Below, in pieces: positions 45,732 through 54,823 of a stretch of DNA of 64,000 nucleotides. Below the pieces are notes generated by a model that was given only the letters and a program-made list of their open reading frames with translations, did no database searches and was not told where the DNA came from. Origin of the DNA: Candidatus Eisenbacteria bacterium (GTDB taxonomy: Bacteria > Orphanbacterota > Orphanbacteria > Orphanbacterales > Orphanbacteraceae); NCBI GenBank assembly GCA_016867715.1, contig VGIW01000002.1, positions 47,056 through 111,055 on the forward strand, given 5' to 3'. The position numbers were made by a program, and so were the translations under genes. The first letter of the stretch is position 1. The number at the start of each line of letters is the position of its first letter.

Positions 45732-46259
45732 CACGTATCCCCCGAGTATCTCCCTGTTCGCCTAACAAGTTGTTGAAAAACCTCAAAACCACCCCCCGAA
45801 CTGCGGAACTTGGGCTAGTACCCCAACGCCGGCATCGCCGGCTGCCGATTCCCGCGACTCGTTGCGGGCTCCGAGCCGCTTGTCGGTTCTCCCGCAACGA
45901 CCTCCGGTCTCGTCCGGGAGTTCAACGAGGGGGAATAGGCTGCGAGCGGTCTCGTCCAAACCCGCGGAAAGGCCGGTCCGTCGATTCGCGCAGTTTGAGG
46001 TCGAACCCTTGGCGTCTCGTGATTCATCGTGCCGGCTCCTGCGATCATCCGACCAAACCGCTTCGTGCTCGGAAATCGACCGGCCGATCGATCCGCATCC
46101 TACTCCGTCCACTCTTCAGGAGTCAAGGCTCTGTGGATGGAGGGGACCGAAAGCTGCACGCGGACGGCGAGAGGTCGCGCGGGTGCCCTTCCTCGAACGC
46201 CGAAAGATCGAAGAAGGGTGAACGAATTGTGACGGAGGGCAGCAGCCATCCTGTGGGGT
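45732..46259. other. 528-bp non-coding stretch beside the island gene
   Basis: The sequence CCTAACAAGTTGTTGAAAAA (about 45761-45780), with the palindrome AACAAGTTGTT, resembles mobile-element or cassette-junction sequence, but no transposase, integrase or matching second end was found. The rest is intermediate-GC and lacks a credible gene. Several short frames are rejected. Confidence 0.35.
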
Positions 46260-48476
46260 TCACCTCACCACGATCACCTTGCGCGTCGTGCGGCGCGCGT
46301 CGGCTTCCATGCGAAGAACGTACGCGCCGGGAGGAACCTCGCGCCCGCCCGCGTCTTTTCCGTCCCAAGTGATCGCGCACGAGGCGCAGCGCCCGACCCC
46401 ATCGCCGGCGAGGCTTCGAATGAGACGCCCGGAAGGGTCGAAGATGTCGACCCGCGTCGTGTTCTCGCTCGACGAGACGAGCGGGATCGTGAGCATCCCG
46501 CGGCTCGGGTTCGGATACGGCCGCCACACGATCGCTTCTTCCGCGCGCGGAGCGGCGGGAGCGATCCCGGCGATCTTCGCGGCGAGCGCGCCCGCGAATC
46601 GGGCCGAGCGCGTGAAGAAGTCGAAGTCGAGGTTCCCGAGCGTGTCGCCGGGCGTGTGAAGCGGGTTGTCGTCCTCGATCGTCTCGCTGATCTGAACGGC
46701 AGAGAAGCCGTTCGCCCAGAACGAAGCGTGATCGCTGAACGTGGCGAGAGGAGAGACCTCCATCGAGAAGGGGAGGCCGGGGGCGGCTGCAGGCCCAATC
46801 GCTGCGGCCTCGGAGAGAATCCACGAAGAGGGCTCGTTCGTGACGATGCGAAGCGGCTCTCCCGGAATGCCGATCATGTCGATCTGGATGTTCGCCGCGA
46901 TTCGTTCTTCCTCTTCGCGCGCGCGGATCGCGTACGCCGTGCTCCCGAGAAGGCCGAGTTCCTCTCCCGAGAAGAGGAGAAAGCGGAGCGTCTTCCGGGC
47001 GGGCGAGGAAGCGAAGACGCGCGCCGCCTCGAGGACCGCGGCGACGCCGGTCGCGTCGTCGTCGGCGCCGGGGGCGTCGGTGAACGGGGCGGCGACCGAG
47101 TAGGAGTCGTAGTGGGCGGAGAGGATCACGAGGCTCTCCGCCTCGGCGCACCCCCGAAGATCGGCGTACACATTTCTTGAAACATGCACGATCTCTTCCG
47201 GCAGGGGGACGAGGCTCCACGAATCGCCCCCGTCGCCGCTTTGAACGAAGAGCCCGTCGTATCCGCCGAAGAGGATTCCCCCGTTCGGATCGAAGCGCAT
47301 CAGGTTGACGCTTCTCCAGAGGACACCGAAGGGGAAGACCGCTTCCCTCCAGGTGAAGCCGCGGTCGTCCGACCGGATCACGCGGGTGAGGCGAAGAGGG
47401 TCGAGCCCGGCGAGCCATACGGTCGAGTCGGAAGCGGCTCCCGCGCTGTAGCCGAACGCGACCCCGGTCGCCGCGACCCGCCATCCGCTCGTCTCCCAGA
47501 TGAGGGCGGAGGCGTCGCTGAGGGCGGCGATCCCGAACGTTGAATCATAAAAATCCACGTCTTGAATCGTTCGGCTCGTCCCGACCGGCTGAAGCTCCCA
47601 CCCGCTGGGGGTCCAAGCGAGCATCGTTCCGTTCGCGCCGCATGCCCAGGCGTGCCGTTCGTCGACGTACGCGACGTCCATGAGATAGCTCGTCGTGAGC
47701 GTGTCCGCGCTCCACGTCTCCCCTCCGTCCTCCGTCCGGTGGACGACGCCGATCTGGCTCGCGATCATTCCGCGCGTCTCGTCGAGGAAATCGACGGCGG
47801 GGAGCGGATCCGATCCGAGCGTGCCGAAGAGGGCCCACGCGCCGCCGTCCCTTCGGAAGACGCGCCCCGCGTCGCCGACCGCGAAGACGCGCCCCTCGCC
47901 CGCGACGCTCACCCCGTGAAGGCGGACCGGCGCGCGGAAGTCGACCGTCCACGTCGCCCCGTCGTCCTCCGTGCGGAGAACCGCGCCGGTGTCGGCGTGG
48001 GAGACGGCCATCCATCCGTCCCGCCCGTTTTCCGAGAACGAGATGTCGAAGAGGTCCCACTGGGAGAGCCCGTACGAATGGAAGACCGGCTCGTATCCCA
48101 TCGCGGCGAACCGCCGGGAGAGATACTCCGCCGCGCTCTCCTGCTCCGCGGTGTATTCATAGCGCGTGCCGAAGGCGACGAGATCGGCGACGGTCCGCCT
48201 CAAGGAGTCCGCCTCGAAACGCGAGGCGAGCGACGCGAGGAGGAAGTCCCCCGCCGAGGATGCGCTCGCGAACGCTGGGAGCGGAGCGGAAGTCCCGGCG
48301 CGCGTACGCTCGAGGAAGAGACCGCGGCCGGGCGGTCCGGCGTCCGGATCGGGCGGCGTCCCGGCCGCGGCGATCCCGGCGAGAAGAAAAATAAGGGAGC
48401 GGACGATCCAACGCTCAAGCGAGGGAGACGCGTCTCCCGTCGCCGAAGGCGATCGCGCGGTACGCTTTTTCCACAC
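46260..48476 (-). CDS. Secreted M28 aminopeptidase with an inserted YCF48-like propeller and sorting domain
   Basis: A 738-residue exported protein. An N-terminal hydrophobic stretch (LIFLLAGIAAAGTPP) is followed by a helical propeptide-like part, TRYEYTAEQESAAEYLSRRF. Residues 135-430 are repeats of a YCF48-like beta-propeller (EDDGATWTVDFRAPVRLHGV, TEDGGETWSADTLTT). The M28 zinc-peptidase core follows: LSAHYDSYSV, GADDDATGVAAVLEAARVFA, FSGEELGLLGSTAYA, and the late LHTPGDTLGNLD with the final His. A FlgD-like sorting domain ends it (PYPNPSRG, then DGKDAGGREVPPGAYVLRM). The GTG start overlaps the phosphoglycerate mutase gene by 62 bp and is the only in-frame option I found. Confidence 0.82.
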   Translation of the reverse strand: MWKKRTARSPSATGDASPSLERWIVRSLIFLLAGIAAAGTPPDPDAGPPGRGLFLERTRAGTSAPLPAFASASSAGDFLLASLASRFEADSLRRTVADLVAFGTRYEYTAEQESAAEYLSRRFAAMGYEPVFHSYGLSQWDLFDISFSENGRDGWMAVSHADTGAVLRTEDDGATWTVDFRAPVRLHGVSVAGEGRVFAVGDAGRVFRRDGGAWALFGTLGSDPLPAVDFLDETRGMIASQIGVVHRTEDGGETWSADTLTTSYLMDVAYVDERHAWACGANGTMLAWTPSGWELQPVGTSRTIQDVDFYDSTFGIAALSDASALIWETSGWRVAATGVAFGYSAGAASDSTVWLAGLDPLRLTRVIRSDDRGFTWREAVFPFGVLWRSVNLMRFDPNGGILFGGYDGLFVQSGDGGDSWSLVPLPEEIVHVSRNVYADLRGCAEAESLVILSAHYDSYSVAAPFTDAPGADDDATGVAAVLEAARVFASSPARKTLRFLLFSGEELGLLGSTAYAIRAREEEERIAANIQIDMIGIPGEPLRIVTNEPSSWILSEAAAIGPAAAPGLPFSMEVSPLATFSDHASFWANGFSAVQISETIEDDNPLHTPGDTLGNLDFDFFTRSARFAGALAAKIAGIAPAAPRAEEAIVWRPYPNPSRGMLTIPLVSSSENTTRVDIFDPSGRLIRSLAGDGVGRCASCAITWDGKDAGGREVPPGAYVLRMEADARRTTRKVIVVR

Positions 48477-50013
48477 GGTCCCAGTTCTCCTCGCGATCGA
48501 GCGCCCAGTATCGGCCGGTCACGGTGCACACGCGCCCGAGCCCGAGCGCGGCGCACTTCTCGTCGACCGCCTCGATGTACGCCGCTCCCGCCTCCGGACG
48601 CTCGCCCCGTCTTCCGAGCAGGCTGTGCACGCAAACCCTCTTCACGCCGCGTTCCTTCGCCATCTCGAGAAGCGCCATGAGGTGGTCGAGCGATCCGTGC
48701 GAGCTGAAGAACGAGACGATGCCGAGAAGGTGGAGCGTCTTCCCGTCCTTCGCGGCCCCGTCCATCGCCCAGAGGAACGCCTCGTTTGTCCGATAGGAAC
48801 CGTCCGCGATCGCCCGGTCGATGCGGAGCCGGTCCGAAAAGAGCACGCGTCCCGCCCCGAGATGGAGATGTCCCGCCTCCGAGTTCCCGACCGTCTCCTT
48901 CGGAAGACCGACCGCCTCGCCGGAAGCGGCGAGAAGGGTGGACGGATAGTTCGCACGCAAACGATCCATGTTCGGAGTGTACGCCTCGGCGATGAGGTTG
49001 CCGAAGATCTCGTCCGAGTGCCCCCACCCGTCCGCGATCACGAGGAGCACGCGGCGCTTCCCCTCTCCGGCCGGGAAGCATTCGAAGAGGGGGCGTCCGG
49101 TCATCTCGCTCGGTCGGGGGACGCCGAGGAGAGCGAGCACGGTCGGGGCGACGTCGATGAGCGAGCCGCCGCCGCGCGGGACGATTCCGTGAGGGACCTC
49201 GCCGCTCGGAACGAAGACGAAGGGGACCGGGCTCGTCGTGTGACCCGTGTCGACCGTCCCCTCCGGGTAGAGCCAATGCTCGACGGTTCCGTGGTCGGCG
49301 GTGATGATCGTCTCGACCCCCGCCCTTCGCGCCGCCTCGGTCACGCGGCCGAGATGGCGGTCGACCGTCTCGACCGCCTGTCTCGCAGACTCGGCGTTCT
49401 CGATATGTCCGAGCACGTCGATGTTCGCGAAGTTGGCGACGATGAGATCGAAGCCGCCGTCCTCGAGGCAGGCGACGATCCGGTCCGCGACCTCGTTCGC
49501 GTGAAGCCCCGGAATCGTCGAGTAGTCGGCCACCGCCGGCGACTCGATGAAGAACCTCTCCTCGCCCGGAAAGGGCTCCCGTCTCTTTCCGTTAAGAAAA
49601 TACGATAGATGAACGGATTTTTCGGTCTCCACGACCTTCGCTTGCCGGAGCCCGGCCCGGCTCACCGCCTCGCCGAGCGTTCCGGCGATTGCTTCTTCCG
49701 GGGGGAAGGCGACGCGGACGTCGAGATCCTCGTGATAGCGGATCATCGTCGCGAACCGGAGGTCGAGCGGCTCCCGGACGGGGAAGTGCCGGAAACCGCG
49801 CTCGACGAAGGCTTGCGTGAGCTCGATCTCGCGTTCCCCGCGGATGTCGTAGAAGATCACGGAGTCCTCCTTCGCGGGAAGGCCGGCCGGTGTTCCGTCC
49901 GGGCCGTAGAGCACGAGCGGGTTCATCGCTTCGTCTTCCTCGCCGCGGCGGTACGCATCGAGGACGGCGCGGGCCATCGGCGAGCGGTACTCGGGGTTCG
50001 TCTTCTCGGTCAT
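48415..50013 (-). CDS. Circularly permuted cofactor-independent phosphoglycerate mutase-like enzyme
   Basis: A 532-residue protein of the iPGM family with its two halves in swapped order. Residues 1-330 match the usual C-terminal half: FYDIRGEREIEL, VVETEKSVHLSYFLNGK, ANFANIDVLGHIEN, TADHGTVEHW, HTTSPVPFVF. Residues 335-532 match the usual N-terminal half: LLVIADGWGHSDEIFGN, GLPKETVGNSEAGHLHLGAG with the catalytic Ser, LLGRRGERPEAG, and TGRYWALDREENWDRVEKAY. All metal ligands are present by eye alignment, as are most substrate Arg and Lys residues. The usual DGRD motif is GRRG, which loses its second Asp. It interconverts 3- and 2-phosphoglycerate if active. No signal peptide. It has its own promoter-like element. 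Confidence 0.85.
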   Translation of the reverse strand: MTEKTNPEYRSPMARAVLDAYRRGEEDEAMNPLVLYGPDGTPAGLPAKEDSVIFYDIRGEREIELTQAFVERGFRHFPVREPLDLRFATMIRYHEDLDVRVAFPPEEAIAGTLGEAVSRAGLRQAKVVETEKSVHLSYFLNGKRREPFPGEERFFIESPAVADYSTIPGLHANEVADRIVACLEDGGFDLIVANFANIDVLGHIENAESARQAVETVDRHLGRVTEAARRAGVETIITADHGTVEHWLYPEGTVDTGHTTSPVPFVFVPSGEVPHGIVPRGGGSLIDVAPTVLALLGVPRPSEMTGRPLFECFPAGEGKRRVLLVIADGWGHSDEIFGNLIAEAYTPNMDRLRANYPSTLLAASGEAVGLPKETVGNSEAGHLHLGAGRVLFSDRLRIDRAIADGSYRTNEAFLWAMDGAAKDGKTLHLLGIVSFFSSHGSLDHLMALLEMAKERGVKRVCVHSLLGRRGERPEAGAAYIEAVDEKCAALGLGRVCTVTGRYWALDREENWDRVEKAYRAIAFGDGRRVSLA

Positions 50014-50084
50014 GGTCTCTCCGATTCGTCCGGGTTCTCCGGCGGCGCATGCGGATCCGCGCGGGAGGTTCGTTGTTTCCCGTG

Positions 50085-50093
50085 ATTATAGCA
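50085..50093 (-). promoter_or_regulatory. Extended -10 promoter of the permuted mutase gene
   Basis: On the minus strand TGC followed by a perfect TATAAT, about 72 nt upstream of the ATG. No clear -35. Confidence 0.45.
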
Positions 50094-50128
50094 ACGGGCC
50101 GGTCGGGATGCCACGCGGCGCGCGTGCG

Positions 50129-51475
50129 TCATCGAGTTCCGGAGGGCGCATTTCGCCGAGCGCCGGCGTCGAAGAGCGCGGTGAGACAAGCCGCGACCGC
50201 GAGAGGGAGGAGGACGAGAAGGTTTCTACCGAGCGCGGTTCCGTTCAGAAGAAACGTGTAGCTTTCGGTGAGGCAGTAGGCGGCGGCGAAGAGAATCGCG
50301 CCCCCCGCGAGAACGATCTCCGGAACGCCGCGGCGCAGCGCTCGTCCGGGAAGAAGGAGAAAGACGAGCGCGAACCACGCGAGCCCCCAGCTTCCGGTGA
50401 GCGTCATGTTCGCTGCGGAGAGACGCGCGCAGTCGTACGCGCGGCGGGCGATCGACGCCGGGTCGGGGAACGAGAGAACGTGGTACGGGGACTCGGCGAT
50501 CCCCCCGAGATGCTTGAAGAGGAGCCAGGGAAGAGAGAAGGGAAGGGAGATCGCGAACCATCGGAGAAGCGCGCGTCCGCCCCCTCGCCCCGTGCGGCGA
50601 ACGACGACGATCGCCGAGAGGAGCAGGAAGAAGGGGAGCCCCTCGTTCTTGATCACGGGAAGAAAACCCGCGAAGAGAGCGGCGGTCGCGAGCGATCCCC
50701 CGTCCTTCTCCCGCTCCCATCGGGAAAGATGAAGAACCGACGAGGCGAGGAAGAAGGCGAGGGGAAGGTCCATGTACGCGACCGATCCGTGATGGACGAG
50801 AAGGGGGGCCGAAGCGAGAAGAAGAAGCCCGAGGCCCGCGGTTCTTCCGTCGGTTCGCTCTGCAAGAAGGCGCCACGAGACAAAGAGGAGAGCCGCGAGA
50901 AAGAGCGGAAAGAGCATCTTGATCGCCGGCTCGTGCCACATTCCGGCGGCGCGCGCGAGGTAGGCCTCGACGAACGGAATCCCAAGCGGGTAGCCGGGGA
51001 AGCCGGCCCAGTCTCCGTCGAAGAAGCCCTCGGGGAATCCCTTTTCGATGTAAAGTATTTTCGCGCGGAAGGACCAGATGCGCCACGCGTCCCAGCTGTG
51101 GATCGGCCGAAGGACCGCCTGGCGGAACGCGTAGGCGACCTGCGCGAGGGCGACGGCGAGAGCGAGGAGCGCCCAGACGGATCGGGGCGCGCTCTCTCGC
51201 GTCCAGACCGAGTCGATCGGACCGCCCCTCCCGAGGATTCGTCCCGCGGGATAGAGAAGAACGGGGATCGCGAGGAGCGGCCCGCTCGCAGGGACGCCGA
51301 GAAGCGCGAGGGCGAGCGACCAGGTTCCGACGACGGCGGCGCCGCTCCCGAACGAGGCGACGAGACGGTCGAGGAGCCCCGCGCGCCGCATGCCGACCCG
51401 AAGGAGAAGGAGGAGCCCCTCGCCCGCGGCGACGAGGAGAACGAGCGCGATCCCGGCGGAGAAGAACGCGGTCAT
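50129..51475 (-). CDS. Multi-pass membrane protein, GT39-like glycosyltransferase candidate
   Basis: A 448-residue integral membrane protein with about 11 hydrophobic segments. RPIHSWDAWRIWSFRAKILY (about residue 140) has the acidic/aromatic first-loop character of predicted membrane glycosyltransferases. KNEGLPFFLLLSAIVVVRRT occurs late, and MYLYG- or QxxRW-type motifs are absent, so the call is provisional. ATG 51475 overlaps the stop of the upstream gene (ATGA), pairing it with the exported membrane protein at 51472. The pair reads as one transcript. Confidence 0.6.
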   Translation of the reverse strand: MTAFFSAGIALVLLVAAGEGLLLLLRVGMRRAGLLDRLVASFGSGAAVVGTWSLALALLGVPASGPLLAIPVLLYPAGRILGRGGPIDSVWTRESAPRSVWALLALAVALAQVAYAFRQAVLRPIHSWDAWRIWSFRAKILYIEKGFPEGFFDGDWAGFPGYPLGIPFVEAYLARAAGMWHEPAIKMLFPLFLAALLFVSWRLLAERTDGRTAGLGLLLLASAPLLVHHGSVAYMDLPLAFFLASSVLHLSRWEREKDGGSLATAALFAGFLPVIKNEGLPFFLLLSAIVVVRRTGRGGGRALLRWFAISLPFSLPWLLFKHLGGIAESPYHVLSFPDPASIARRAYDCARLSAANMTLTGSWGLAWFALVFLLLPGRALRRGVPEIVLAGGAILFAAAYCLTESYTFLLNGTALGRNLLVLLPLAVAACLTALFDAGARRNAPSGTR

Positions 51476-52530
51476 CCGCCTTTCCTCCTGTAGACCGATC
51501 CGAACCCCGGCTTTCGGAAGAGAAGCTCGCACGCGGCGGAGTCGTCGGGCGCGGGCACACGATAGGAAAGGACATAGTTCGCGCGATCAGCCACGCGGTT
51601 CGGGTACAAGTAGTACGCGCCCCTCTCCCACGGGTACGGCTTCTCCGCGCGGAACTCGACGGGCGCGCCCCGAGGGATTCTCCGTTTCGCTTCGTAGAGG
51701 AGCGGATAGAACCCGGGCGGGTTCGTCGCCTCGATCTTCTCGTCCAAGCTCTTCCCGGCGAGGACGCGCGTGTCCGCTCGGAGGATCCGGACCTCGTCGC
51801 AGCCGGCGCGCGCGAGAAAGAGAAGCGTCCCCGCGAGAAGCCCGCGCGAAAGGACGCGCGCCCCTTTCGCGGGGAACCTGCGGGCGCTCCGAAGGGTGAG
51901 GAGGAAAGGCAAAACGACGAAGAGAACCCCGAGAAGAAGGGAGAACGGAATCGGGCCGATCCGGGCTCCGAGAATCCCGTTCACCGAGTAGTGCGCGCGA
52001 AGCTCCGTCTCCGAGAAGTCTCTCGCGATCGCGCGCAATCGCTCGCGAAACCCCCGCGCGCCGCGCAGTTCGAAGAGAACGAGGCTTGCCCCCCGCGCCC
52101 GCGGACCCGGGGTGAGGAGAAAGCGATCGATCGTTCCCCTCCAGCGCGGATCGCGCGAGAGATCGAGGACGCTCCGGCCGCTCGGGATCGCGAGACGCCA
52201 ATCCGGCACGAAACCGCGCTCGGCGTCGTCGGTCCAGTAGACCACGGCCCCCGCCTCGGGAGGTTCGACGCGAACATCGATCTCCAAACGATTGAACCGA
52301 GAAGCATCGACCGCGAGGCGGCCCGGGCTGAGAAACGAGGAGATCTCGTCCTCGACATCGAGCCGGGCGGCTCCCGCGCGCGGGGCGAGGCGCCCGGTCG
52401 GCGCCGACCACCCGAGGAGGTCGCCGCCCGCGAAATCGAAGCGGAGAGACTCCGCGCGCGGCCCTTCCGCGAACGCCGCGCGGCATGCGAGAAGAACGAG
52501 AGCGACAAGGATGAAACCGGTCTTCCGCAC
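51472..52530 (-). CDS. Exported membrane protein of unknown function
   Basis: A 352-residue protein with a signal peptide (MRKTGFILVALVLLACRAAFA). The mature N-terminal region (about residues 22-185) is rich in beta-strand-like sequence and resembles a carbohydrate-binding or jelly-roll module, but I cannot name it. Two hydrophobic helices follow (about residues 195-212 and 228-245), then a soluble domain with KPYPWERGAYYLYPNRVADR. GTG 52530 has GGAGTGA upstream. It is paired with the downstream membrane transferase candidate. The real function is not known. Confidence 0.6.
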   Translation of the reverse strand: MRKTGFILVALVLLACRAAFAEGPRAESLRFDFAGGDLLGWSAPTGRLAPRAGAARLDVEDEISSFLSPGRLAVDASRFNRLEIDVRVEPPEAGAVVYWTDDAERGFVPDWRLAIPSGRSVLDLSRDPRWRGTIDRFLLTPGPRARGASLVLFELRGARGFRERLRAIARDFSETELRAHYSVNGILGARIGPIPFSLLLGVLFVVLPFLLTLRSARRFPAKGARVLSRGLLAGTLLFLARAGCDEVRILRADTRVLAGKSLDEKIEATNPPGFYPLLYEAKRRIPRGAPVEFRAEKPYPWERGAYYLYPNRVADRANYVLSYRVPAPDDSAACELLFRKPGFGSVYRRKGG

Positions 52531-52616
52531 GACGTTTCACTCCGAGACGAGAAAGCTCCTATTATCGTACACGAGGGACGAGGCCCTTGGCGATCGGAAC
52601 GCCCGCCGCCCGTTTC

Positions 52617-52645
52617 TTGCGCCCCGCGCGATCGGTCTCTATAAT
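52617..52645 (+). promoter_or_regulatory. Sigma70-like promoter of the M1 peptidase gene
   Basis: TTGCGC (52617-52622), a 17-nt spacer and a perfect TATAAT (52640-52645). It is about 50 nt upstream of the peptidase ATG. Confidence 0.55.
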
Positions 52646-52693
52646 CGCATCAGTCGCGCGTCCGGCGGGCGCCGCCTCGAGGAGAGAAACACG

Positions 52694-54823
52694 ATGAGAT
52701 CTCTGAAAGCTGCCCTCGCGATCGTCCTCGCGCTTGCATCGACGGCCTACGGAGCCGGGCGGATCGTGGAGCACGACATCCGAGCGGCGATCGATCCGTA
52801 CCGATCCCGGCTCGAGGCGTCCGACCGCTTCACGATCGTCGGCCACGAAACGAGCGTCTTCCGGTTCCTCCTGAACGAGAGTCTCGAGATCGTCTCGATG
52901 GAGCTGGGCGGCGCCCCGATCCAATGGCGGGAAGAACCGCTCGATCGGAGCCGGTGGGGGGGAGCCCTGTACGGCGAGGATTCCTTGTGGGAAGGGGTTC
53001 GCGAGATCGCGATCAACCTTCCCGGACGCGCGGGGGACAGCTCGAGGGTCTCGATCGAATACCGGGGCGCCGTCCTCGACTCGCTTCGCGCGCCGTCCGC
53101 GGGCTACGAGCGATCGTTCGAGACGACGTCCGGCCTGATCGAGGCGCGCGGGGCCTATCTTTGCGGCCCCACCTTTTGGGTGCCGACGGTTCCCGGGGAC
53201 CTCTTCACGTTTCGCTTGGAGGCGCGCGTTCCGCGGGACTGGGAGAGCGTGAGCCAGGGGACGCTTCTCGCGCGCTTCGAAGAGGGGGGATCGAGGATCG
53301 CCCGGTGGCGCGCGGACGACCCGATGGAGGAGGTCTATCTCGTCGCGGGACCGTATGTCTTTCGGGAGGCGGACTTCCACGGGACCAAGATCCAGACCTT
53401 CCTCTACGACGCGGAGGACGCAGAAAAACTCCATGATATGTATATCGATGCCACCCAAACTTTTCTGGACCGCTACAGCCGCGCGATCGCCCCGTATCCG
53501 TTTCCGAAATTCGCCCTCGTCGAGAACTTCTGGCAGACCGGCTTTGGGATGCCGTCGTTCACCCTTCTCGGCGCGCAGGTGATCCGGCTTCCGTTCATTC
53601 CGCGCACCTCCTTCGGGCACGAGATCCTCCACAACTGGTGGGGGAACGGGGTGTACGTCGATTGGGAGAAGGGGAATTGGTGCGAAGGGCTAACGGCCTA
53701 CGGGGCGGACTATGCCTACAAGGAGGACCAGGGGGCGCTCGAGGCGGCCGGTTTTCGCCGCGGTGAGCTCCAGAAATTCCGGAACTACGTGAGCGAGCAC
53801 GAGGATTTCCCGCTCGTCCGGTTCCGCAGCCGATCGGACGCGGCGACGCAGGCGATCGGCTACTCCAAGGGTACGATGGTCTTCCACATGCTCCGCAGGG
53901 AGATCGGGCACCGCGCGTTTGTTGAAGGTCAAAGGAATCTCTTCCGAGACAGGCGCTTCCAGCCGTCCGATTGGGGACACGTGAGAGAGGCGTTCGAGAC
54001 GGCGAGCGCCGCCGATCTCGAGACGTTCTTCCGGCAATGGACGGAGCGCACGGGGGCGCCCATGCTGCACCTTGCCGATGTCCGCTCGAAGACGATCCGC
54101 GGGGGGCGCTACGAGGTGAAGGGGACGGTCGTTCAGGAGAAGCCCCCGTATCGGCTCGACGTGCCGGTTCGCATCGAGACCGAGGCGGGCCCGGAGAGCC
54201 TCGTCGTTTACCTCACTGGGGAGAAGAAAGGATTCGAGTGGAAAGGGAATGCCCGGCCGCTCGCGGTCGCGGTCGATCCCGCCTTTCATCTCTTTCGGCG
54301 GCTCCACCGGGAGGAGATCCCTCCGTCGCTCTCCGAGACTCTCGGAGCGGATTCGGTGTGGATCGTGCTCCCCGAGACGGGCGGCTCGCCGTCCGATTCG
54401 GCGCTTCGCGCGCTCGCCGAGTCGTGGGCGGCCCGTCCCGGCGTCCGTGTCGCGACGGAGGCGCTCCCCGAGGACGTCTTCGCGCGCTCGACGATCTGGC
54501 TCTTCGGACGGACCGTCTACGCCGAGCGATTCGCCAAGACCCTCCCCGCGGGGACGAGCCTCTCCGAGGGCGTCTGGAAGATCCCGTCCGGGGATTTCCC
54601 CGCCGCCTCTCACTCCGTCGTTCTCACCGCGCGGCATCCGGTCGATCCGGAGCGCTCGTGGTCCCTCTTCGATCCGCACGATCCGGAAGCCGTCCCCGCG
54701 CTCGCGCGGAAGATCCCTCATTACGGGAAGTATGGATATCTCGTGTTTGAAGGAACGGAGAACACCGCCAAGGGGGAATGGGAATCGTCGCGTTCCCCGC
54801 TCCGCGTCGAGCTTGAACGGTGA
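52694..54823 (+). CDS. Secreted M1-family aminopeptidase
   Basis: A 709-residue exported protein with a signal peptide (MRSLKAALAIVLALASTAYG). A beta-sandwich N-terminal domain leads to the gluzincin core: GHEILHNWWGNGVY with HEILH, and WCEGLTAYGADY with the third zinc ligand Glu (residues about 315-340). The HExxH to Glu spacing is one residue shorter than in leukotriene A4 hydrolase, which I recall for the Bacteroidetes-like subgroup. RDRRFQPSDWGHVREAFE and the C-terminal beta domain follow. The acidic GAMEN exopeptidase motif is not obvious, so specificity is unclear. ATG 52694 has GAGGAGAG upstream and its own promoter. Confidence 0.88.
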   Translation: MRSLKAALAIVLALASTAYGAGRIVEHDIRAAIDPYRSRLEASDRFTIVGHETSVFRFLLNESLEIVSMELGGAPIQWREEPLDRSRWGGALYGEDSLWEGVREIAINLPGRAGDSSRVSIEYRGAVLDSLRAPSAGYERSFETTSGLIEARGAYLCGPTFWVPTVPGDLFTFRLEARVPRDWESVSQGTLLARFEEGGSRIARWRADDPMEEVYLVAGPYVFREADFHGTKIQTFLYDAEDAEKLHDMYIDATQTFLDRYSRAIAPYPFPKFALVENFWQTGFGMPSFTLLGAQVIRLPFIPRTSFGHEILHNWWGNGVYVDWEKGNWCEGLTAYGADYAYKEDQGALEAAGFRRGELQKFRNYVSEHEDFPLVRFRSRSDAATQAIGYSKGTMVFHMLRREIGHRAFVEGQRNLFRDRRFQPSDWGHVREAFETASAADLETFFRQWTERTGAPMLHLADVRSKTIRGGRYEVKGTVVQEKPPYRLDVPVRIETEAGPESLVVYLTGEKKGFEWKGNARPLAVAVDPAFHLFRRLHREEIPPSLSETLGADSVWIVLPETGGSPSDSALRALAESWAARPGVRVATEALPEDVFARSTIWLFGRTVYAERFAKTLPAGTSLSEGVWKIPSGDFPAASHSVVLTARHPVDPERSWSLFDPHDPEAVPALARKIPHYGKYGYLVFEGTENTAKGEWESSRSPLRVELER

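Follow-up and report, generated by a model that had tools for sequence, protein, structure and literature searches.

The bacterial-type cofactor-independent phosphoglycerate mutases (iPGMs; gpmI, TIGR01307; structures 1ejj and 4nwj) are two-domain metalloenzymes whose catalytic cycle runs through a phosphoserine, from which the phosphate is then returned to another hydroxyl. Here, we describe a gene that encodes a circularly permuted form of such an enzyme, in a stretch of 64,000 nucleotides from a Candidatus Eisenbacteria bacterium (contig VGIW01000002.1, positions 47,056 to 111,055 of the forward strand; hereafter the window). Like gpmI, to which both its halves are homologous (40-46% identity to 1ejj), the protein carries the same metal ligands, serine, lysine and most substrate residues; unlike gpmI, it has its halves swapped, its ends in the transferase domain, GRRGE in place of DGRD and several other fixed changes. 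The archaeal-type phosphoglycerate mutase (aPGM; apgM, TIGR00306, NF003160) belongs to the same metalloenzyme superfamily and is encoded in the same genome, but is about 400 amino acids long and unpermuted. Phosphopentomutase (DeoB) and other enzymes of the alkaline phosphatase superfamily match much more weakly, over approximately 174 aligned residues. Finally, the PhpG-type enzymes (NF038358), named in NCBIfam for phosphonoformyl transfer to 3-phosphoglycerate, offer a precedent, by family name only, for new roles among relatives of these mutases, although they belong, unlike the permuted protein, to the aPGM lineage; the aPGM of the window's genome matches NF038358 under its cut-off.

Results

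Order of the two halves and position of the break

The gene and its parts, with residues of the Geobacillus enzyme 1ejj given for comparison, are as follows:

48415..50013, minus strand: permuted iPGM gene, 532 amino acids, single open frame, ATG start, TGA stop
49087..49998, minus strand: canonical C-terminal half, protein 6-309, equivalent to 1ejj 210-508
49060..49086, minus strand: new linker, protein 310-318, from the canonical C terminus to the canonical N terminus
48436..49059, minus strand: canonical N-terminal half, protein 319-526, equivalent to 1ejj 3-210

A GGAG stretch sits a few bases 5' of the ATG. The first half of the protein (6-309) consists of the remainder of the transferase domain followed by most of the phosphatase domain, while the second (319-526) consists of the start of the phosphatase domain, with a metal-ligand aspartate and the catalytic serine, followed by the first part of the transferase domain. 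In pairwise alignments, the second of these pieces matched 1ejj with 199.7 bits and the first with 220.3, and BLASTP against 1ejj returned the same two pieces, at identities of 46% and 40%. The two-piece alignment therefore places the break at canonical residue 210 or so, inside the transferase domain. In other words, the linear order of a canonical iPGM is not kept, the C-terminal half preceding the N-terminal one, and the gene is a circularly permuted iPGM with its ends relocated into the transferase domain. The first-pass annotation of this DNA, made from the sequence alone, had described just such an order in one frame of normal total length, with the ends meeting in the transferase domain, and the alignments agree with it on each count.

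Profile searches give the same picture. TIGR01307, PF01676 and PF06415 each matched the 532-amino-acid protein in two stretches: positions 125-216 of PF06415 lie at the protein start and positions 1-131 at its end, while positions 213-504 of TIGR01307 match residues 13-310, with a second stretch covering the rest. Summed over its two pieces, the TIGR01307 score is 473 bits against a cut-off of 330.65, and PF01676 (Metalloenzyme) reaches 187.1 bits against 24.3. NF003897, a second iPGM model, scores 420 bits, under its cut-off of 862, and TIGR00306 scores 33.5 bits, on residues 176-271 alone, short of its cut-off of 320. None of the profiles run on the protein recovered the normal order of the halves.

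A confident model of the whole protein had a predicted local distance difference test score (pLDDT) of 92.4 and a predicted template modelling score of 0.86, with a pLDDT of 69 in the block of residues 311-320, around the linker. The top 22 matches to this model in Foldseek and the top 16 in VIA were all iPGMs. In VIA, model residues 10-311 align to 1ejj 213-510, and a model of the N-terminal half alone aligns, with protein residues 393-532, to 1ejj 77-226.

Distribution and phylogeny of the permuted form

Out of 8000 candidate proteins scored, 6433 matched, and the relatives considered here are the best 120 of these 6433, with query coverage of 95-100%. All 120 have the permuted order, which was assigned to 114 of them via a motif-order rule and to the remaining 6, whose ADHG motif reads SDHG or ADHC, by eye. 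A genome collection yielded 48 loci, namely 43 full-length or nearly full-length permuted loci, 4 fragments (L044, L045, L047 and L050) and 1 canonical Clostridium gene (L048); L040 is slightly short. The break point is common to the window gene, the 120 relatives and the 43 loci, the latter from separate records.

The records of the permuted loci are labelled Aminicenantes, Chloroflexota, Armatimonadetes, Zixibacteria, Thermodesulfobacteriota, Deltaproteobacteria (some ranked as Myxococcota), Gemmatimonadetes, WOR-3, TA06, B38 and KSB1 (a fragment), and one is a Methanomassiliicoccales archaeon; related records are labelled Candidatus Eisenbacteria, Latescibacterota and Gemmatimonadetes, among others. 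In the window genome's own phylum, the permuted gene is present in 3 of 7 genomes. The permuted iPGM is, in other words, a wide family spread over many bacterial phyla (about ten) and one archaeon, and not the oddity of a single genome. Moreover, the gene is under purifying selection, with a ratio of nonsynonymous to synonymous substitution rates (dN/dS) of 0.14 relative to a copy from the same genus (L003).

In a tree of 71 rows, which used 15 of the 29 Chloroflexota canonical loci and 5 of the 120 Clostridium-group proteins and to which L088 contributed no row, the 49 permuted and 22 canonical rows lie on opposite sides of one branch, with a support of 100 in the Shimodaira-Hasegawa-like approximate likelihood ratio test. 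The stem branch of the permuted clade has a length of 1.14, and the clade sits beside the bacterial-type canonical iPGMs. When each half was analysed by itself, the resulting trees reproduced this split with a support of 100, and the permuted protein is therefore no chimera of two different iPGMs. Within the rows used, the permuted proteins firmly form one clade.

Active site

For comparison of residues, the permuted proteins were re-ordered to the canonical order and numbered by 1ejj. The resulting 162 rows combine the 120 top-scoring database proteins with 42 loci, and certain rows may represent one and the same gene; L039, although permuted, is outside this set, the gene caller having chosen an antisense frame. 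Canonical residue counts come from 30 Clostridium-group proteins. Two features of the window gene are of particular importance:

48880..48882, minus strand: catalytic Ser378 (Ser62 of the Geobacillus enzyme), in an invariant column (162 of 162 rows)
48601..48615, minus strand: GRRGE motif, protein 467-471, in the place of DGRD

The seven canonical metal ligands (Asp12, Ser62, Asp403, His407, Asp444, His445 and His462) are found in 162 of 162 rows and correspond in this protein to Asp328, Ser378, Asp199, His203, Asp240, His241 and His258. Lys336, His123, Arg153, Arg261 and Arg264 are likewise kept in 162/162 rows, and Arg185 and Arg191 in 161/162; in the protein's own numbering, the residues kept further to the metal ligands are Lys132, His439, Arg469, Arg501, Arg507, Arg58 and Arg61. 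This agrees with the initial description of the metal ligands, the catalytic serine and most of the substrate arginines and lysines as present.

What sets the permuted proteins apart is the motif at canonical residues 151-154. DGRD at this site occurs in none of the 162 permuted rows, as opposed to 181 of 181 canonical-order sequences, a non-random set made up of the 30 best-scoring loci in each of two phyla (60 loci, L088 counted among them), 120 Clostridium-group proteins and L058. GRRGE is found in 160 of the permuted rows, the other two having GRRCE and GRRGD. Namely, Asp151 is replaced by glycine and Gly152 by arginine in 162/162 rows, Arg153 is kept, and Asp154 is replaced by glycine in 161/162 and by cysteine in one. 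The first-pass annotation had correctly noted the change from DGRD to GRRG, but counted one lost aspartate, whereas two (151 and 154) are lost and an arginine (152) is gained. A paper on nematode iPGM (PMC5382265) places residues 153-154 in the set around 2-phosphoglycerate (2-PG) in the S. aureus enzyme. What is more, six further replacements (Ser124 to Gly, Pro262 to Gly, Asp263 to Glu, Ala265 to Glu, Leu79 to Arg and Asn68 to His) are each present in 162/162 rows, and Arg194 to Asn in 156/162.

Other phosphoglycerate mutases in the same genomes

The window's genome encodes an aPGM of 401 amino acids (contig C60) that scores over the NF003160 cut-off. More broadly, 50 genomes were examined, including 46 distinct ones with the permuted gene (G007, the same genome as G006, being counted once). 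An aPGM (TIGR00306) over the cut-off is present in 47 of the 50 and in 43 of the 46, and is missing from G006, G027 and G048. The cofactor-dependent enzyme (dPGM, TIGR01258) exceeds its cut-off in one of the 50 (G013), with 20 others matching under it, and a full-length canonical iPGM stands beside the permuted gene in G048 only, among the 46. Altogether, 44 of the 46 carry another phosphoglycerate mutase family over its cut-off, and the permuted gene is seldom the sole phosphoglycerate mutase of its genome. In 14 control genomes, PF06415, TIGR01258 and TIGR00306 exceed their cut-offs in 6, 6 and 7 cases, respectively.

Three larger samples put these counts in context. Across the 142 genomes in the class of G023, aPGM exceeds the cut-off in 47 of the 56 that carry the permuted gene, a further 4 having a split or partial aPGM, and in 0 of 10 with a canonical or uncertain iPGM; the 56 include two genomes with one fragment each, whose order is not tellable (G271 and G323), and three in which the gene is represented by pieces on two contigs (G261, G268 and G274). 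Among the 201 genomes of Chloroflexota, the canonical iPGM is found together with aPGM in 1 of 98, while both genomes that carry the permuted gene, one of them the centre of the sample, have an aPGM. The phylum of G026 (148 genomes) includes 7 permuted genomes, each of which has an aPGM.

Gene neighbourhood

The surroundings of the permuted gene in the window are as follows:

50085..50114, minus strand: sigma-70-like promoter match (GTGGCA, spacer of 18, TATAAT, with TG before it), a consensus match only
46260..48476, minus strand: downstream neighbour, M28 peptidase, overlapping the 3' end of the permuted gene as called
50129..51532, minus strand: upstream neighbour, 467 amino acids, no Pfam match

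The promoter-like match lies approximately 70 bases upstream of the start codon, and 3 such sites were observed in 46000-52700 against 0.3 expected from shuffles. In the M28 peptidase, the middle part is BNR-like and a secretion sorting domain lies at the C terminus, and the 467-amino-acid protein bears a weak likeness to the putative glycosyltransferases LA_3751/LA_3752; both are likely to be functionally unlinked to the permuted gene.

Elsewhere, the neighbours vary. A histidine phosphatase gene lies directly 3' of the permuted gene in three Chloroflexota loci (L004 9554-10180, L005 9554-10180 and L025 9521-10216); the one in L004 (PF00300), whose nearest model is the MSMEG_4193 putative phosphomutase, matched under its cut-off, overlaps the stop codon of the permuted gene. 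In two deltaproteobacterial loci the same position is taken by a Macro-domain gene (L026 9554-10117, by Pfam, and L029 4841-5374, by eye). Loci labelled Aminicenantes have ABC (ATP-binding cassette) transporter genes nearby. Two genes away in L006 (10686-12683) and L013 (10690-14774) are 'ViGfDGmDP' proteins, apparently other enzymes of the alkaline phosphatase superfamily as judged by eye, with which a gene of L012 (7109-8608) clusters. Lastly, in a TA06 record, a pyruvate phosphate dikinase-like gene (by eye; L042 9409-12078, minus strand) lies within a few genes of the permuted one.

Discussion

We consider it probable, judging from the residues kept and changed, that the permuted protein is a neofunctionalised iPGM paralogue, a metal-dependent phosphoryl-transfer enzyme whose substrate is a small phosphorylated acid different from 3-phosphoglycerate. 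In particular, a substrate other than the usual glycolytic one is likely, and the suggestion of a differing substrate made in the first-pass annotation gains support because the motif change is fixed in the permuted rows and because another phosphoglycerate mutase is present in the genome. Two metal ions would activate Ser378 to accept the phosphate as phosphoserine; meanwhile, the dephosphorylated acid would stay bound in the second domain, with a hydroxyl presented there for return of the phosphate, as in canonical iPGM. With Asp151 and Asp154 lost and Arg152 gained, the pocket may be refitted to a different, perhaps more anionic, acid. As for the origin of the permutation, a single event is probable, in which an ordinary gpmI was duplicated and new start and stop sites were acquired, with glycolysis presumably served by the aPGM encoded in the same genome.

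That said, several observations weigh against this interpretation. Most substrate residues are kept in the permuted form, and the two-piece TIGR01307 sum still lies above the cut-off (473 vs 331 bits). Two of the genomes, G006 and G027, have no other phosphoglycerate mutase over a cut-off, for which missing sequence could account. aPGM is also common regardless of the permuted gene, 66 of the 76 genomes in the G023 class that lack both iPGM forms having one, and in the phylum of G026 canonical iPGM and aPGM occur together in at least 74 of 86 genomes; three genomes of that phylum (G374, G440 and G450) have permuted iPGM, canonical iPGM and aPGM all at once. On the structural side, the N-terminal half folded alone gave a poor model (pLDDT 68.6), and each structural alignment spanned one half of iPGM, the two halves never being superposed together. 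Finally, among the neighbourhoods of permuted loci compared, there is no partner recurring across lineages and hence no pointer to a pathway.

The main rival holds that the protein interconverts 2-PG and 3-phosphoglycerate beside aPGM as a second, ordinary phosphoglycerate mutase, with a permutation and a motif change that are neutral or compensated. This is possible because canonical iPGM and aPGM coexist widely in one phylum, and the retention of nearly all substrate and metal residues, together with the summed profile score, speaks for it as well. According to Foster et al. 2010 (PMC2964296), iPGM and aPGM coexist in, e.g., Geobacter, and both the dPGM and the iPGM of E. coli are active mutases. 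Given the G026 phylum and these reports, coexistence with another phosphoglycerate mutase is therefore weak evidence on its own. However, Asp154, of the 2-PG set, is lost in 162/162 permuted rows, while DGRD stands in all 181 canonical-order sequences; the stem branch is long; and co-presence of aPGM separates canonical from permuted genomes both in the G023 class (0/10 vs 47/56) and in Chloroflexota (1/98 vs 2/2). The motif change and the long stem weigh more than coexistence in favor of an altered function, and we regard a second ordinary mutase as rather unlikely.

Less probable still is a phosphatase, in which Ser378 would take up the phosphate and hand it on to water, since the altered transferase pocket could no longer retain the acceptor. 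One could cite in its favor that the phosphatase domain retains its full set of metal ligands whereas the acceptor motif has changed, that several relatives carry the NCBI name 'alkaline phosphatase family protein', and that a histidine phosphatase gene follows directly in the three Chloroflexota loci mentioned above; a plain phosphatase, however, would likely have no need for His123, Arg153, Arg185, Arg191, Arg261 and Arg264, each retained in 161-162 of 162 rows. A regulator or scaffold without catalytic activity would fit the lack of any partner or pathway context common across lineages among the loci compared, but is very hard to reconcile with a catalytic serine and metal ligands invariant in 162 rows and a dN/dS of 0.14, and we give it little credence. 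An assembly artefact or chimeric contig, for which the draft state of the host genome (3.5 Mb in 172 contigs) might be invoked, has a negligible probability and is rejected, as independent assemblies show the same order. Namely, chance order is excluded by the alignment scores and the same order in the best 120 relatives, and local misassembly by the 43 full-length or nearly full-length loci, with the same order and break, in other genome records.

Returning to a phosphoryl-transfer enzyme with an altered substrate, we lean modestly towards a one-time permutation of iPGM having given rise to a new family, in about ten bacterial phyla and an archaeon, that would work next to the glycolytic mutase and carry out a hitherto undescribed phosphoryl transfer with a new small acid as substrate, the move of the chain ends being accompanied by the rebuilding of the motif. 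To our knowledge, few large two-domain metabolic enzymes are circularly permuted in nature, and the present case is well preserved, with one clade, one break point and one diagnostic motif in many genomes. The initial remark that no natural permutation had been described in the iPGM family still stands after a literature search, which found none and outside which most papers in subscription journals lie; none is described for iPGM or the alkaline phosphatase superfamily in the available portions of PMC2876114 and PMC6957218.

The family permits a direct test of whether permutation and substrate change are coupled. Annotation is affected as well: since the two-piece sum passes the gpmI cut-off, metabolic reconstructions could score the permuted protein as a glycolytic phosphoglycerate mutase, while the name 'alkaline phosphatase family protein' is given by NCBI to several relatives. 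If its substrate is indeed new, the reaction would be one that is absent from the current maps of carbon metabolism of Aminicenantes, Chloroflexota and others.

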